Source: a virus. Taken from it: a stretch of 25,488 nt of DNA. The stretch's first letter is position 1, and every line of letters begins with the position of its first letter. A model generated the notes under the pieces. That model was not told the DNA's origin. It saw only the letters and a list, made by a program, of their open reading frames with translations, and did not search any database. Location of the stretch: IMG/VR virus record IMGVR_UViG_3300049595_000193, positions 1 to 25,488 of that record. One strand, given 5' to 3'. Shown one piece after another: positions 4,376 to 10,499 of the stretch. The translations under genes were made by a program, and so were the position numbers.

Positions 4376-4390
4376 AATTAGTGGTTGTGG

Positions 4391-4618
4391 TTACGGCAGG
4401 ATCGCCGCAACCTCGGCCTCGGTCAAACCGAGAGCCGCCAACTTAGCCACGGCGGACGAACGGGCAGCCTCACGCTCCGCCTTCGCCTGCTCCTCCGTCA
4501 CACGCTGCGCCTCAGCAGCAGCGATATCAGCCTCCCGCTGCGCCACCTCCTCAGCGGTTGCCAAGCGTTCCTCGGTCCTACCGTCGGGGTAGGTGGTGGT
4601 GATCGTCCACGGTTCCAT
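4391..4618 (-). CDS. Small coiled-coil tail-associated protein
   Basis: A 75-residue protein: a short N-terminal beta segment (MEPWTITTTYPDGRTEER), a long Ala/Glu/Arg-rich helix (about residues 20-58) and a C-terminal LAALGLTEAEVAAIL motif. Short proteins of this build, with the GLTEAE ending, are common next to phage tail-fibre genes, but their function is not known; a fibre assembly or trimerisation role is possible. The ATG at 4618 is preceded by AAAGGAA at normal spacing. An intrinsic terminator follows directly. Confidence 0.7.
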   Translation of the reverse strand: MEPWTITTTYPDGRTEERLATAEEVAQREADIAAAEAQRVTEEQAKAEREAARSSAVAKLAALGLTEAEVAAILP

Positions 4619-4635
4619 GATTGTTCCTTTCAGGG

Positions 4636-5178
4636 TTATTGGCTAAGTCCATAAATAGTCAGCGTTCCCGTTAGCGTCCCTGAACTTGGAAGCAACGTGA
4701 TCCCGTCGTATGACGTAGAAAGCGAGTGAGTGCAAGCGTCATCAGCGATGCTCGCGCTGCCACCAGCCTCCGACGCGGAAGTCACCGCACGAGAAGCGGT
4801 AGGTTGTGCCAAATATGGACCGTACAAATACAGGTGCGAACCGTTGCGACCGCCGTCCAGCCAGCCGTTGAACCCTGTCGTCTGTGAGGTCGATCTGGCT
4901 CCAAATACGCTTGTTGATGTAGCGGCCAGATATTGGCGCGTGTAGTTGCTTCCCGATGCGTCGGTGCCACTCGCGCGAAGCCTGAACCATAGGTTTTGAT
5001 TGTTCGTTGATCCGACGACGTTCGTGACGCAGAGGTAGTTGTCATAAGTCGCGGAGAAGCAGCCGTTCACATTGACGGCTGTCGCCGCCGTGAACGTCAC
5101 CTTCCCCGACGCAGACACCGACACACCCGAACCAGCGACACTCGTCGGCACGATCAGTTTCAGACCTGCAATAGTCAT
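4636..5178 (-). CDS. Beta-rich tail protein, paralogue 3 of 3
   Basis: A 180-residue protein, third of three adjacent paralogues. Shared blocks include FSATYDNYLCV (about 42-52), LRASGTDASGSNYTRQYL, LYGPYLAQPTASRAV and CTHSLSTSYDGITL, ending in a TGTLTIYG strand. The pattern is that of an all-beta jelly-roll-like fold seen in phage tail-fibre and tail-tip proteins. The function is likely receptor contact or fibre decoration, inferred from position and fold only. It differs from the other two in its N-terminus (MTIAGLKLIVPTSVAGSG rather than the ITPTSIAHAG block). The ATG at 5178 has AGGAG six bases upstream, overlapping the preceding stop. Confidence 0.75.
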   Translation of the reverse strand: MTIAGLKLIVPTSVAGSGVSVSASGKVTFTAATAVNVNGCFSATYDNYLCVTNVVGSTNNQNLWFRLRASGTDASGSNYTRQYLAATSTSVFGARSTSQTTGFNGWLDGGRNGSHLYLYGPYLAQPTASRAVTSASEAGGSASIADDACTHSLSTSYDGITLLPSSGTLTGTLTIYGLSQ

Positions 5179-5181
5179 GCC

Positions 5182-5727
5182 CTACTCCTCATACCCGAAC
5201 ACGACGACGTTGCCGGTGAACGTATTCACGGTACTGGTCCGCAAAGTTAGACCGTCATAAGACGTTGACAAAGAATGTGTCGAAGCCCAATCGTTCAACT
5301 CCACCGTTCCGCCATACACATTCACCGACCTAGAAGCAGTCGGCTGCGCCAAGAACGGACCATAAATATGGAAATGCTCACCCGAATCGGAAGTAGCCCC
5401 ATATCCGAATCCCAAACCCTCTGTCTGCGAGGTCACCCGCTGGCCAGTAACAGAAGTTGAAGTAACGTACAGATACTGACGAGCGTAGTTTGATCCTGTG
5501 TCATCCGTTCCGGCAGCGCGAAGTCGCGCGTAAATAGACGTTGCAGTTGAAGTCTTATAGTTAGCGACGATCAGGTAGTTGTCGAACGAACTCGTGAACA
5601 CCCCATTCAACGACAACGAAGTCACCGCCGTGAAATCCACGCCACCATCACTGTTGATCGACGCCGACGTGCCAGCGTGAGCGATAGACGTTGGTGTCAT
5701 TATGACGAGACCATCACCAGCAGCCAT
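5182..5727 (-). CDS. Beta-rich tail protein, paralogue 2 of 3
   Basis: A 181-residue protein aligned along its whole length with its two neighbours: TPTSIAHAGTSASI and SLSLNGVF blocks at the N-terminus, LRAAGTDDTGSNYARQYL in the middle, IYGPFLAQPTASRSVNV, then STHSLSTSYDGLTL and a final VVVFGY strand. The middle segments between these blocks differ most, as expected if loops carry binding specificity. No enzymatic motif is seen. The ATG at 5727 overlaps the TGA of the upstream paralogue (TGATG), so the two are translationally coupled. The likely role is as a tail fibre or tail-tip subunit; the family name is not known to me. Confidence 0.75.
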   Translation of the reverse strand: MAAGDGLVIMTPTSIAHAGTSASINSDGGVDFTAVTSLSLNGVFTSSFDNYLIVANYKTSTATSIYARLRAAGTDDTGSNYARQYLYVTSTSVTGQRVTSQTEGLGFGYGATSDSGEHFHIYGPFLAQPTASRSVNVYGGTVELNDWASTHSLSTSYDGLTLRTSTVNTFTGNVVVFGYEE

Positions 5728-6347
5728 CAGGACCTCACCCCATAGACTTGAAGCGTCCCTGTAACATTGCCAGCACTAACCGAGATCGTGAACCCGTCGT
5801 AAGCGGTAGACAACGAATGAGTGCAAGCGAAGTCTGCGATGATTCCGCTATCGCGGCCAAGCACGTTCACCGTGCGCCACGCCGTCGGTTGCGCCAGATA
5901 CGGTCCATAGATTGCGATCGTTTCCCCGGAACGCTGAGTGTTGGCGGTGTACCCAAACACCGCTGATGTTTGGCTCGTGAAACGCGCTCCTGAAACCGTC
6001 GTGCTGTTTGCGACGAGATTCTGATAGGTGTAGTTGCTGCCAGAGGCGTCAGTACCGGAGGCGCGTAGTTTGGCATCCAAATAGTAATCGGCTGTGCTAT
6101 GCACGCTACGGATGCTCACCACATAGTTGTCGTAGGTTGCCGAGAACACCCCGTTCAGCGACAGCGACGTGACCGCCGTGAACGTAACTTGACCGTTAGT
6201 GCCGATACTCGCAGACGTACCAGCGTGAGCGATAGACGTAGGCGTGATAAGCACCATGCCCATAGTGGACGGGAACGTAGCCAAACGCAGCGAACGGTAC
6301 TTAGTGAAACCACCAAGCCCCGACTGCTTAACGGACCTAAGAGCCAT
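5727..6347 (-). CDS. Beta-rich tail protein, paralogue 1 of 3, with N-terminal extension
   Basis: A 206-residue member of the tandem trio. It has the same LITPTSIAHAGTSASI, SLSLNGVFSATYDNYVV, LRASGTDASGSNYTYQNL, IYGPYLAQPTAWRTVNV and CTHSLSTAYDGFTI blocks, but also an extra ~28 N-terminal residues (SVKQSGLGGFTKYRSLRL) that resemble the start of the glycine-rich tail protein encoded at 6711-7649 (KATDSGLKGKSSVRSL). The extension may anchor this member to the tail, which would make it the base of a hetero-oligomer; this is inference. The ATG at 6347 overlaps the preceding gene by 11 bases (ATGGCTCTTAG contains both the start and the upstream stop). Confidence 0.77.
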   Translation of the reverse strand: MALRSVKQSGLGGFTKYRSLRLATFPSTMGMVLITPTSIAHAGTSASIGTNGQVTFTAVTSLSLNGVFSATYDNYVVSIRSVHSTADYYLDAKLRASGTDASGSNYTYQNLVANSTTVSGARFTSQTSAVFGYTANTQRSGETIAIYGPYLAQPTAWRTVNVLGRDSGIIADFACTHSLSTAYDGFTISVSAGNVTGTLQVYGVRS

Positions 6348-6711
6348 CGAACACCACCCACGCTAGAGACCCCTCATCCCACACATACTGGTTACCGTCA
6401 CTGGGGTACGGGACAGGAGCACTCCACAAGCATGTGTCCTCATCCAAAACCCACGACGGGAACGGTTGCGGGGGAATAAACGCATCCCGCTCCTCATCGT
6501 AAACAAACCCGACACCCGCATAGTTCTTCCGTAGCGGTGTACCGCCGTTAGCGTGAACACCACCATGCGTGTTGTACGAGGTTTGCACCCAACGTCCACC
6601 AAGCCCCAAATCATCGGCAAGAAACTCATGCCCACGATGCTCCTCGCTATCATTCACAGCGAGAACACGAGTAACGGTGTTGAGGTCGTCTAGTTCAGCG
6701 AAGTAAGCCAT
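6337..6711 (-). CDS. Conserved virome tail-region protein
   Basis: A 124-residue acidic, aromatic-rich protein beginning MAYFAELDDLNTVTRVLAVN and containing WVQTSYNTHGG, KNYAGVGFVYDEERDAFIPP and PFPSWVLDEDTCLW blocks. I recognise this as a sequence type widespread in cyanophage and other aquatic phage tail regions, where it has no assigned function. The repeated W/Y/D pattern suggests a small beta fold that binds to a fibre. The ATG at 6711 overlaps the TAA of the glycine-rich gene (TAATG), so it is coupled to it. Confidence 0.8.
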   Translation of the reverse strand: MAYFAELDDLNTVTRVLAVNDSEEHRGHEFLADDLGLGGRWVQTSYNTHGGVHANGGTPLRKNYAGVGFVYDEERDAFIPPQPFPSWVLDEDTCLWSAPVPYPSDGNQYVWDEGSLAWVVFDGS

Positions 6712-7649
6712 TATTTACTCCAACTTACAGAGCCGCTAGCGTTGAACGTGAGGATCGTGTAGTTACCGCTCGTAGTTTGCGTCGGGCTGCCTGTCGTGCT
6801 TGCGGTAAGTCCTTCGGAAGTAAGCCAGCGAACAATCACGACACCGGAACCGCCAGTTCCACCGTTACCAGCGCCGCCCGCGTTTGAAGAACCACGCCCA
6901 CCGCCCCCTCCACCAGTGTTTGCGGTACCGTTGCCGGGTGTTCCCCCATTAGCGCTACCCGCGCCGCCCCCTCCAGATGCGGTACCAGCGGTTCGTGTTT
7001 CATATGCGCCACCGCCGCCGCCTCCGGCTCGCGTAACGCTTGATCCCGTTATCGACGATGCCACGCCGTTGCCGCCGTTTCCTGCTGCGCTGCCCGCGTT
7101 CTGACCAACCTGCCCAGCACCACCACCACCACCACCGCAGAAGTTTGGCGTACCAGAAGCACTTCCACCATTGAAGCCTTGATTAGCGGTACCTGTTCCC
7201 CGTGTTGTACCGCCCGCAGAAGTGGAACCCGCGCCACCTCCAGAGCCGCCGTTATCGCTTCCGTCAGTAACATCGCTGGAGTTCTCGCCGCAACCGCCAC
7301 CAGTTGAAGTGACTGTGCTGAATACCGAATCAGAGCCCTTGCTGCCCGCTAAACTACTAACGCCACCCGGCCCTCCACCTCCGACAGTAATGGTGTAAGA
7401 CTGACCGTTGCTCATGATTAGTGCAGATTCCGCGCTTGCTCCGCCACCCGAGGTTTCGCCCACAACTGAGCAGCGATACCCGCCTGCGCCTCCTCCACCG
7501 AATCCGCCTTGCCCGTTGCTGCAACCAGAGCCGCCGCCTCCGCCAGCGACAACAAGGTACTCAACCTGAAACCAGCCAGACGCTTCTTTCAGCGACCTAA
7601 CAGATGACTTACCTTTCAGGCCGCTATCCGTAGCCTTACTTAAAGTCAT
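6711..7649 (-). CDS. Glycine-rich tail adhesin-like protein
   Basis: A 312-residue protein with a short N-terminal attachment-like segment (ATDSGLKGKSSVRSLKEASG), then a VEYLVVAGGGGGSG start and a ~220-residue glycine-rich domain with many GGGGG runs, closing with GGTGGSGVVIVRW and a small C-terminal beta segment. The VEYLVVAGGGGG...SGVVIVR frame is the hallmark of glycine-rich domains of phage tails; related poly-glycine sandwich domains form receptor-binding tips (for example the S16 adhesin). The likely role is host recognition. Low-complexity coding makes this region prone to length change by recombination. The ATG at 7649 lies one base after the previous stop. Confidence 0.82.
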   Translation of the reverse strand: MTLSKATDSGLKGKSSVRSLKEASGWFQVEYLVVAGGGGGSGCSNGQGGFGGGGAGGYRCSVVGETSGGGASAESALIMSNGQSYTITVGGGGPGGVSSLAGSKGSDSVFSTVTSTGGGCGENSSDVTDGSDNGGSGGGAGSTSAGGTTRGTGTANQGFNGGSASGTPNFCGGGGGGAGQVGQNAGSAAGNGGNGVASSITGSSVTRAGGGGGGAYETRTAGTASGGGGAGSANGGTPGNGTANTGGGGGGRGSSNAGGAGNGGTGGSGVVIVRWLTSEGLTASTTGSPTQTTSGNYTILTFNASGSVSWSK

Positions 7650-9397: not shown

Positions 9398-9721
9398 CTA
9401 GTTGCTCGCATTCACGAAACGTGCCGTGTTCTTGTTCACAATCATCGACGCGGGGGGCATAGTATTTGCGTCATACGGGCGACCCAAAGCACGAGAAGCA
9501 GTCTCAGCCTGACGTACCTTGTCAATTGTTGTCCCCTCGGGTTGGATTCCGTTACGTCTTGCCGTCTCATACGCGGCAAGATCAGTCTTAGTTTTCGACC
9601 ACATAGACGCGAGACCGCTTGTGGCGGTTGCGTTAATGGTCGGGTTCGCTGCCTGCAAACATTCAGCGTACGTGGCGTGGTCTTTCGTTTTGCAACCTGT
9701 GCGGCAGTTACTGTGTGACAA
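9398..9721 (-). CDS. Small conserved protein with Cys-x-x-x-Cys N-terminus
   Basis: A 107-residue protein read from the TTG at 9721, overlapping the end of the upstream repeat-protein gene by 14 bases; the open frame extends further up, but that part is a shadow of the upstream gene. It begins MSHSNCRTGCKTKDHATYAECLQA, in which Cys6, Cys10, His15 and Cys21 could bind a metal. This start resembles small proteins seen in other actinobacterial and aquatic phages, always between capsid and tail genes, with no known function. The remainder is helical with a C-terminal NKNTARFVNASN. No better start codon exists in this frame before residue 40. Confidence 0.68.
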   Translation of the reverse strand: MSHSNCRTGCKTKDHATYAECLQAANPTINATATSGLASMWSKTKTDLAAYETARRNGIQPEGTTIDKVRQAETASRALGRPYDANTMPPASMIVNKNTARFVNASN

Positions 9722-10499
9722 TGTATTGTCCGTATCCTGCCGCCACCACGGCGGCCTCCGACTCGTCATCAAGAATGTTCGTTGCACCGCCACGGAAATA
9801 GTAGTCCGCGTCAGCGATAGCCTCTTGCGCCGGGAACGTGAGCAGTTCACCCGACGTGCCAGTGATCAAGAGTGCCTGACCGTTATCAATCGGGTAACGA
9901 CTCAACAGCACGTTGTCCGTGTACGCCAGTTCGATGGTGGGCAGGACAAGATACTTAGAAGGCACATACACCGTCGCAGTCAAATCGGAACCGAACACTA
10001 GCGGCCTAGCCTCAACCGGTGCCAAAATCAGCAACGTCGCTGTCAAGTTACTACTTGCCACCAGTGGGTTCGTGACGGCAATCCGCACAGCGACACCGTT
10101 AGCGACAAGGTTACTTGTGCCCACAATCAGTGACGCTGCCGCTGTCACAATGTTCGCCGCAACAGACAATGTTACTTCAGCGGACATTGCCGCTGCAGCG
10201 GACCAGTTCTGCTGCATACCGGCAGTCAAGTTAGACTCGGCAGATAGGGCAGACTCGGCCAACAGTGTCGCGGTAGCGGCAGCAACAAGGGCACTCTCGG
10301 CGGACAAGGACGAAGCCGCCACGAGAACGTTCGTTGCATCACTGACTAGGTTGCTTTCAGCAGACAGTGAAGCCTCAGCGGGTGCCACGACAATCACAGC
10401 CGACGTGAGATTACTTTCACCCGACAGTGCTGCAGCACCCTGTACCGTCAGACCGATACCAAGTAAACCAACTACCGGTTCGGTAATGTCAATGAACAT
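9708..10499 (-). CDS. 20-residue repeat protein, structural
   Basis: A 263-residue protein. Residues ~22-178 consist of eight units centred on L-S-A-E-S-N-L-T/V, starting at residues 25, 45, 65, 85, 105, 124, 146 and 167, so the first five have an exact 20-residue period and the last three drift. Between cores lie Ala/Val-rich segments. Such a regular pattern suggests a beta-solenoid or fibrous stalk. The C-terminal ~80 residues (YLVLPTIELAYTDNVLL to GYGQYIVTQ) form a separate domain. The position after the capsid and before the adaptor suggests a head fibre or neck/whisker protein, but this is inference. The ATG at 10499 overlaps the upstream TAA (TAATG). Confidence 0.72.
   Translation of the reverse strand: MFIDITEPVVGLLGIGLTVQGAAALSGESNLTSAVIVVAPAEASLSAESNLVSDATNVLVAASSLSAESALVAAATATLLAESALSAESNLTAGMQQNWSAAAAMSAEVTLSVAANIVTAAASLIVGTSNLVANGVAVRIAVTNPLVASSNLTATLLILAPVEARPLVFGSDLTATVYVPSKYLVLPTIELAYTDNVLLSRYPIDNGQALLITGTSGELLTFPAQEAIADADYYFRGGATNILDDESEAAVVAAGYGQYIVTQ

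Follow-up and report, generated by a model that had tools for sequence, protein, structure and literature searches.

The window, by which we mean the whole 25,488-base stretch of viral DNA analysed here, possibly represents a fragment of a virus. Its open reading frame list contains three adjacent genes on the minus strand, transcribed in the order C-B-A. Gene C (5727..6347) codes for 206 aa, an N-terminal leader followed by a domain, whereas gene B (5182..5727, 181 aa) and gene A (4636..5178, 180 aa) consist of the bare domain. The stop of C is overlapped by the ATG of B over 1 base, and three bases separate the stop of B from the start of A. In trees with their relatives, C, B and A fall into three distinct groups, hereafter positions 1, 2 and 3.

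The original prediction saw at 4636-6347 three tandem paralogous genes for tail proteins, with conserved ends and variable middles. The coordinates are exact, and BLASTP gave identities of 54% (A-C), 49% (A-B) and 57% (B-C), with E values of about 1e-50 to 5e-55; between C, B or A and the next four genes, the best E value was 0.07 or worse for any pairing. The leader of C, the 75-aa gene downstream of A and the threefold pattern in relatives, all described below, were not part of that prediction. The shared blocks that had been named are all present: IYGP(Y/F)LAQPTA (LYGPYLAQPTA in A), HSLST(S/A)YDG, and SGTDASGSNY in A and C, which reads AGTDDTGSNY in B. The description of the ends holds as well, while that of the middle needed refinement, as hypervariable stretches alternate there with conserved ones. 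In B numbering, mean pair identity was 0.62-0.80 over residues 1-50, 0.35-0.43 over 51-150 and 0.49-0.59 over 151-181 (8 or 9 orthologs per position, with loci L003, L037 and L041 left out of groups I/II). The ortholog profile places the hypervariable segments of B at residues 55-66 (5530..5565, minus strand), 103-114 (5386..5421, minus) and 163-168 (5224..5241, minus); residues 1-50, 121-132, 151-162 and the C-terminus are conserved. This profile is closely similar across the three positions (rho 0.75-0.95).

As transcribed, the minus-strand order is a glycine-rich protein (PF21722, phrog_2295; 6711..7649), a 124-aa protein (6337-6711), C, B, A, and a 75-aa "YPDGR" protein (4391..4618). The first 24 residues of the glycine-rich protein resemble the leader of C. 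Elsewhere the window codes for a portal (phrog_104), a major head protein (phrog_1357) and an SU10-type adaptor (PF24175). None of the 15 window proteins searched against PHROGs matched a tape measure, and the 1770-aa protein matched nothing in the PHROG search; from its gene content we read the phage as podovirus-like. An open reading frame at 871-1479, on the opposite strand, has a weak HNH endonuclease match (PF14279, 6e-5, under the Pfam cut-off). Positions 1438-1947 code for an M15-type D-Ala-D-Ala carboxypeptidase domain (PF13539, 1.8e-9), likely a cell-wall enzyme, and a 263-aa protein with repeated LSAESNL motifs (9708-10499) sits between head and tail genes. A host search of genome contigs found a single remote relative, belonging to an uncultured bin, and we claim no host.

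Fold and tail-protein relatives of the domain

The structure of B was predicted with AlphaFold from a 114-row family alignment (111 of 130 prepared domains plus the three of the window). The model is an all-beta domain of 13 strands forming a beta-sandwich (pLDDT 92.7, pTM 0.89). B being the one chain modelled alone, C and A are assigned the same domain by homology. Against viral predicted structures (BFVD, Foldseek), the B model gave 216 matches at E ≤0.001, with TM up to 0.91. The top ones were phage proteins; some of these carry the names tail fibre, collagen triple helix or lambda Stf repeat, and one is the minor tail protein of phage Kieran. Collagen-repeat and lambda Stf-repeat fibres of uncultured Caudovirales share the fold with E values of 1.9e-15 and 1.2e-14, respectively. 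These fibres carry stem and head within one gene, unlike B and A, which are bare domains, and C, which has a short leader only. The trio thus shares the head fold of single-gene trimeric tail fibres, and its genes code for no stem or hub of their own. Collagen-repeat and Stf-repeat stems are trimeric, and the single-gene fibre relatives are presumed to be homotrimers.

PHROG 30994, "minor tail protein", was matched by A (3.8e-6) and B (1e-5), partially, over profile positions 484-583 of 668, and by 32 of the 114 family members at 0.001; C had no match to it at E up to 1. When 17 proteins were searched with a profile built from triplets only, the domain was recognised in CaptainRex gp21, Kieran gp17, Sharkboy gp17 and Cece gp85 of Microbacterium phages, and in Pan2_22 of the Pseudanabaena phage Pan2 (2.6e-8 to 6.6e-17). 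In these phages each gene neighbourhood searched has a single copy, which forms the C-terminal end of a longer protein (in Sharkboy gp17, one that also includes a Sipho_Gp37 part), while the window has three genes. By tblastn of a phage collection with B, C, A and the position 3 domain of L024, Pan2 was matched and the Microbacterium phages weakly; A itself found nothing there at E up to 1. Pfam left A, B and C unmatched at E up to 1 and gave scattered single-member matches across the family.

The family profile had no sequence match among solved structures at E up to 10, and the B model gave weak matches of mixed fold there (best VIA-align Z 8.1, Foldseek E 5e-4 or worse): a levanase C-terminal sandwich, lectins, carbohydrate-binding modules and the Douge baseplate chain 8zdo_a. 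We draw no claim of sugar binding from these lectin and carbohydrate-binding-module matches. That the trio codes for tail proteins is supported both by homology with the C-terminal domain of Microbacterium minor tail proteins (and, for A and B, with PHROG 30994) and by fold. From fold, relatives and loop variability, we infer that the trio binds a receptor.

Copy number, gene positions and the leader in related phages

Relatives were collected by IMG/VR scans with B, with the family alignment and with the 75-aa protein; distant relatives are undersampled, the family-alignment scan having supplied the best 80 of 285 relatives. At least 76 distinct clusters were obtained, of which 57 were uncut by a contig end: 29 single, 5 double, 22 triple and 1 sextuple (15 duplicate loci, matches below 60 bits, identical clusters and loci from L110 onward being excluded from this count). 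Two further IMG/VR scans returned mostly the same contigs, with four new ones (L118, L119, L127 and L128) that stand outside it.

We called a cluster window-type if a later gene starts no more than 3 residues ahead of its domain. Among the clusters listed, 19 uncut ones are of this type: 18 are triple, and the remaining one, L035, is sextuple. The other 38 uncut clusters listed comprise 29 single, 5 double and 4 triple; the distant relatives listed have between 1 and 3 tandem copies, which are extended at the N-terminus, and when dispersed copies are considered, 1 to 5 per locus. In six whole records (17.8-99 kb), total copies were 3, 3, 3, 3, 3 and 6. Successive genes in the 19 window-type clusters are mostly placed between a 1-base overlap and a 6-base gap; the remaining pairs overlap by more, and automatic starts give L033 and L040 longer overlapping second genes. 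Every window-type triplet found lies on an uncultured contig. In L035 (4797-8247), two complete triplets stand in tandem, each opening with a leader-bearing gene, and one 75-aa gene follows the second; its six genes group as 1-2-3-1-2-3 in a quick tree. Copy-number change, which the original prediction had proposed looking for in relatives, was therefore not found among window-type clusters, and copy-number variation as an engine of diversity was rejected for them (18 of 19 triple, plus one 3+3). Of the two features that together were to speak against the prediction, constant copy number and uniform divergence, the first is nearly present and the second is not, the divergence being uneven. Since all window-type triplets may share one triplication, this threefold rule is one of conservation, not of 19 independent events.

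The three positions are mostly, though not perfectly, kept apart. Over 20 window-type sets (L045, L047, L080 and L059 left out as another type, L026, L012 and L013 as cut), the best foreign match of a domain lay at its own position in 54 cases out of 60; the six exceptions were in L025, L032, L037 (two) and L041 (two). A paralog of the same genome was closest in 2 of the 60, at position 2 of L025 and of L030. In a quick tree of 57 domains (without L003), position labels required 6 changes, against a mean of 27.4 after shuffling, and 0 of 200 shuffles went as low; in one of 134 domains, each window gene fell into its own position group (13, 13 and 11 rows; supports 98, 96 and 98). The last residue of the matched domain is G or S at position 1 (19/20), E, K or N at position 2 (20/20) and Q at position 3 (18/20). 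Mean between-genome identity is 43.4, 43.1 and 43.8% at the three positions. On these comparisons, the positions are anciently separate.

Within the trio, C alone carries some 24-29 extra N-terminal residues, and the first gene of each window-type set has 14-37 residues before its domain (for L032, 22 residues entered the comparison in place of the 115 that follow from its automatic start), while later genes have essentially none. The leader of C (residues 1-29; 6261..6347, minus strand) is proposed to be a peptide that docks on the virion; it is similar to the first residues of the glycine-rich protein, at about 0.005 by 200 shuffles. When 25 leaders, including the near-duplicates L011/L012/L013 and L002/L003 and excluding L026 and L059, were each compared with protein starts of their own locus, 5 matched the nearby phrog_2295 protein, at 0.005-0.01 per test (200 shuffles): those of the window, L025, L037 and both sets of L035. 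The remaining 20 had no convincing likeness to any neighbour's start in their own locus; in L029 a phrog_2295 neighbour is present and the leader is not in common. The L041 leader (shuffle value 0.045) was set aside, as it matched an internal repeat rather than a protein start. A motif listing over the loci found one non-triplet protein with the leader motif in each of the window, L035 and L037, and a DNA pattern for one leader class had the L040 contig as sole match in the viral contigs searched. Leaders can differ between close domains: the position 1 domains of L011 and L014 are sisters in the tree and their leaders differ. The leader would dock on the virion, probably where the glycine-rich protein attaches as well.

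The 75-aa gene directly follows the last adhesin gene in 17 of the 19 uncut window-type clusters. It was not found in L041, and in L029 (4126-4176) a stub of 15 codons is left of it at the edge of a block common with L019, the footprint of an exchange. Weaker relatives also lie behind several fibre genes, single-domain ones and others. L020 (1198-2811) has two adjacent fibre-like genes, and behind each lies an 89-aa gene weakly matching the fourth-gene profile (about 1e-7), which suggests one small partner per fibre gene. The 75-aa protein received no credible name from PHROGs or Pfam; it is a candidate assembly factor.

Transfer of the cassette and exchange of single genes

The whole window was compared by blastn with seven loci of siphovirus type. 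L011 was typed by a PHROG tape measure match, L004, L005 and L021 by similar genes, L019 by a tail gene, and L002 and L003 by a first gene that is the same as in L004 and L005 (100 and 99.5% aa identity). All matches lay within 4389-6260 (minus strand). The upper edge was 6260 in 7 of 7 loci, which corresponds to codon 30 of C, just past the leader. In contrast to these loci, L014 had five matches with the window outside the cassette. As judged from the alignments, then, the three chains and the 75-aa gene are shown to move between phages as a unit, without the leader.

Single genes are also replaced. L002 and L003 have 98 and 95% amino acid identity at positions 1 and 2, and 58% at position 3. 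Conversely, L019 and L029 have 53 and 43% at positions 1 and 2, and 91% at position 3, where their main common DNA block (639 nt, 88%) takes in the end of position 2, position 3 itself and part of the 75-aa gene. Such mosaics show exchange of single subunits between phages. Within a genome, the longest identical runs are 6-22 nt, compared with a mean of 10.8 nt and a 99th percentile of 23 between different positions of different genomes; gene conversion on a large scale between the three genes within a genome was not seen. Position 2 of L025, which groups with position 3 of its own genome, is a possible local case.

Covariation was examined in groups I and II, without L003, L037 and L041. Genes of the same genome in group II were more alike than after shuffling of genomes (1 of 2000 shuffles as high), with the excess in residues 1-40 (z of 2.9, 6.3, 3.7 and 4.7 per ten residues); in group I the effect was mild (26/2000) and scattered. 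Contacts between chains, short-range gene conversion or a shared history might each account for this covariation. The idea that tandem copies give scope for recombination thus stands for exchanges between phages, position by position, and shrinks within a genome to at most a short N-terminal patch. Likewise, the conserved gene ends do frame exchange, between phages and by position, not among the copies of one genome.

Proposed assembly of the three chains and comparison with known systems

Tail adhesins are usually treated as homotrimers made from one gene. The domain being normally threefold, and occurring here as a fixed set of three distinct copies with one leader per set, the simplest reading is that a single 1:1:1 heterotrimeric tail adhesin is built from C, B and A, each providing a different chain. 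We give this reading a probability of slightly under 0.6. A model of the joined position 1-2 pair of L019 (AlphaFold, 9 rows; pLDDT 78.1, pTM 0.58) had no confident interface. The suggestion that the paralogs might form hetero-oligomers has indirect support and is narrowed to one copy of each chain; any mixed specificity of such oligomers is hypothetical.

Alternatively, the genes could specify three separate homotrimeric adhesins, co-expressed and each with its own receptor, so that one virion would have three specificities. Each gene does code for a whole domain, the fold being confident for B, the domain occurs as a single gene in distant relatives, and single subunits are exchanged independently. 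Genes 2 and 3 would however be left without leader or stem for attachment, and number and order are fixed as 1-2-3 even in the doubled set of L035; we consider this unlikely. Somewhat less probable again is a stacked fibre, in which C, B and A, as homotrimers or monomers, would be placed end to end with C at the virion, A at the tip, and their position-specific ends as joints. Position-specific C-terminal residues and N-termini, as well as a leader on the first gene only, are what such a fibre should have, yet one would expect its tip to be more exposed than the units further in, and the same loops are hypervariable, with equal divergence, at all positions. Ordinary tandem duplication kept by descent, giving three partly redundant paralogs and no joint complex, fares worst: a single origin of all window-type triplets and a layout preserved by between-phage exchange would suit it, but the number stays at three at ~43% ortholog identity, when dispersed distant relatives vary from 1 to 5, and each position keeps its own ends.

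If the heterotrimer is correct, its history and working could be the following. The single-gene domain of the relatives, with its stem or tail-hub part, probably forms homotrimers. It would have been triplicated long ago, each copy becoming a distinct chain with its own ends. Chain 1, which alone keeps an N-terminal leader, would hook the whole trimer onto the virion, at a site probably common to the glycine-rich protein. With the same loops varying in all three chains, the composite head could change one chain at a time. Finally, the three chains and their 75-aa putative helper would travel as a unit, the leader being matched to the receiving virion. We hold the odds to be even for the complete scheme, namely a mobile four-gene cassette for an obligate heterotrimer, plugged through one chain matched to the receiving virion, and with chains swapped singly across tail types. 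The rule that we offer is that each set of three has a single leader, suited to its virion, and domains that can move freely. A strict three-gene adhesin would imply that mixed-face heads evolve as individual chains are replaced, and that the host range of these phages cannot be predicted from one adhesin gene.

Heterotrimers of tail proteins are a known principle. A paralogous, mobile form with one leader was not found in the open-access literature searched, and tblastn of the phage collection with B, C, A and the L024 position 3 domain matched no mycobacteriophage record. As described in the accessible part of a 2026 preprint (PMC13252515), gp35, gp36 and gp37 of the mycobacteriophage Mysterious, consecutively numbered tail proteins, form a 1:1:1 heterotrimer with a beta-sandwich-like domain, attached via its N-terminal part and present in six copies per baseplate; baseplate hubs are stated there to be trimeric. 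Compared by description, not by sequence, the two systems differ on two points. The accessible text does not term the Mysterious trio paralogs, which the window genes are, and it describes an N-terminal groove formed by all three chains, whereas only one chain of the window trio has a leader. As in Mysterious, three adjacent genes of the window code for beta-sandwich tail proteins, B according to its model, C and A by homology.
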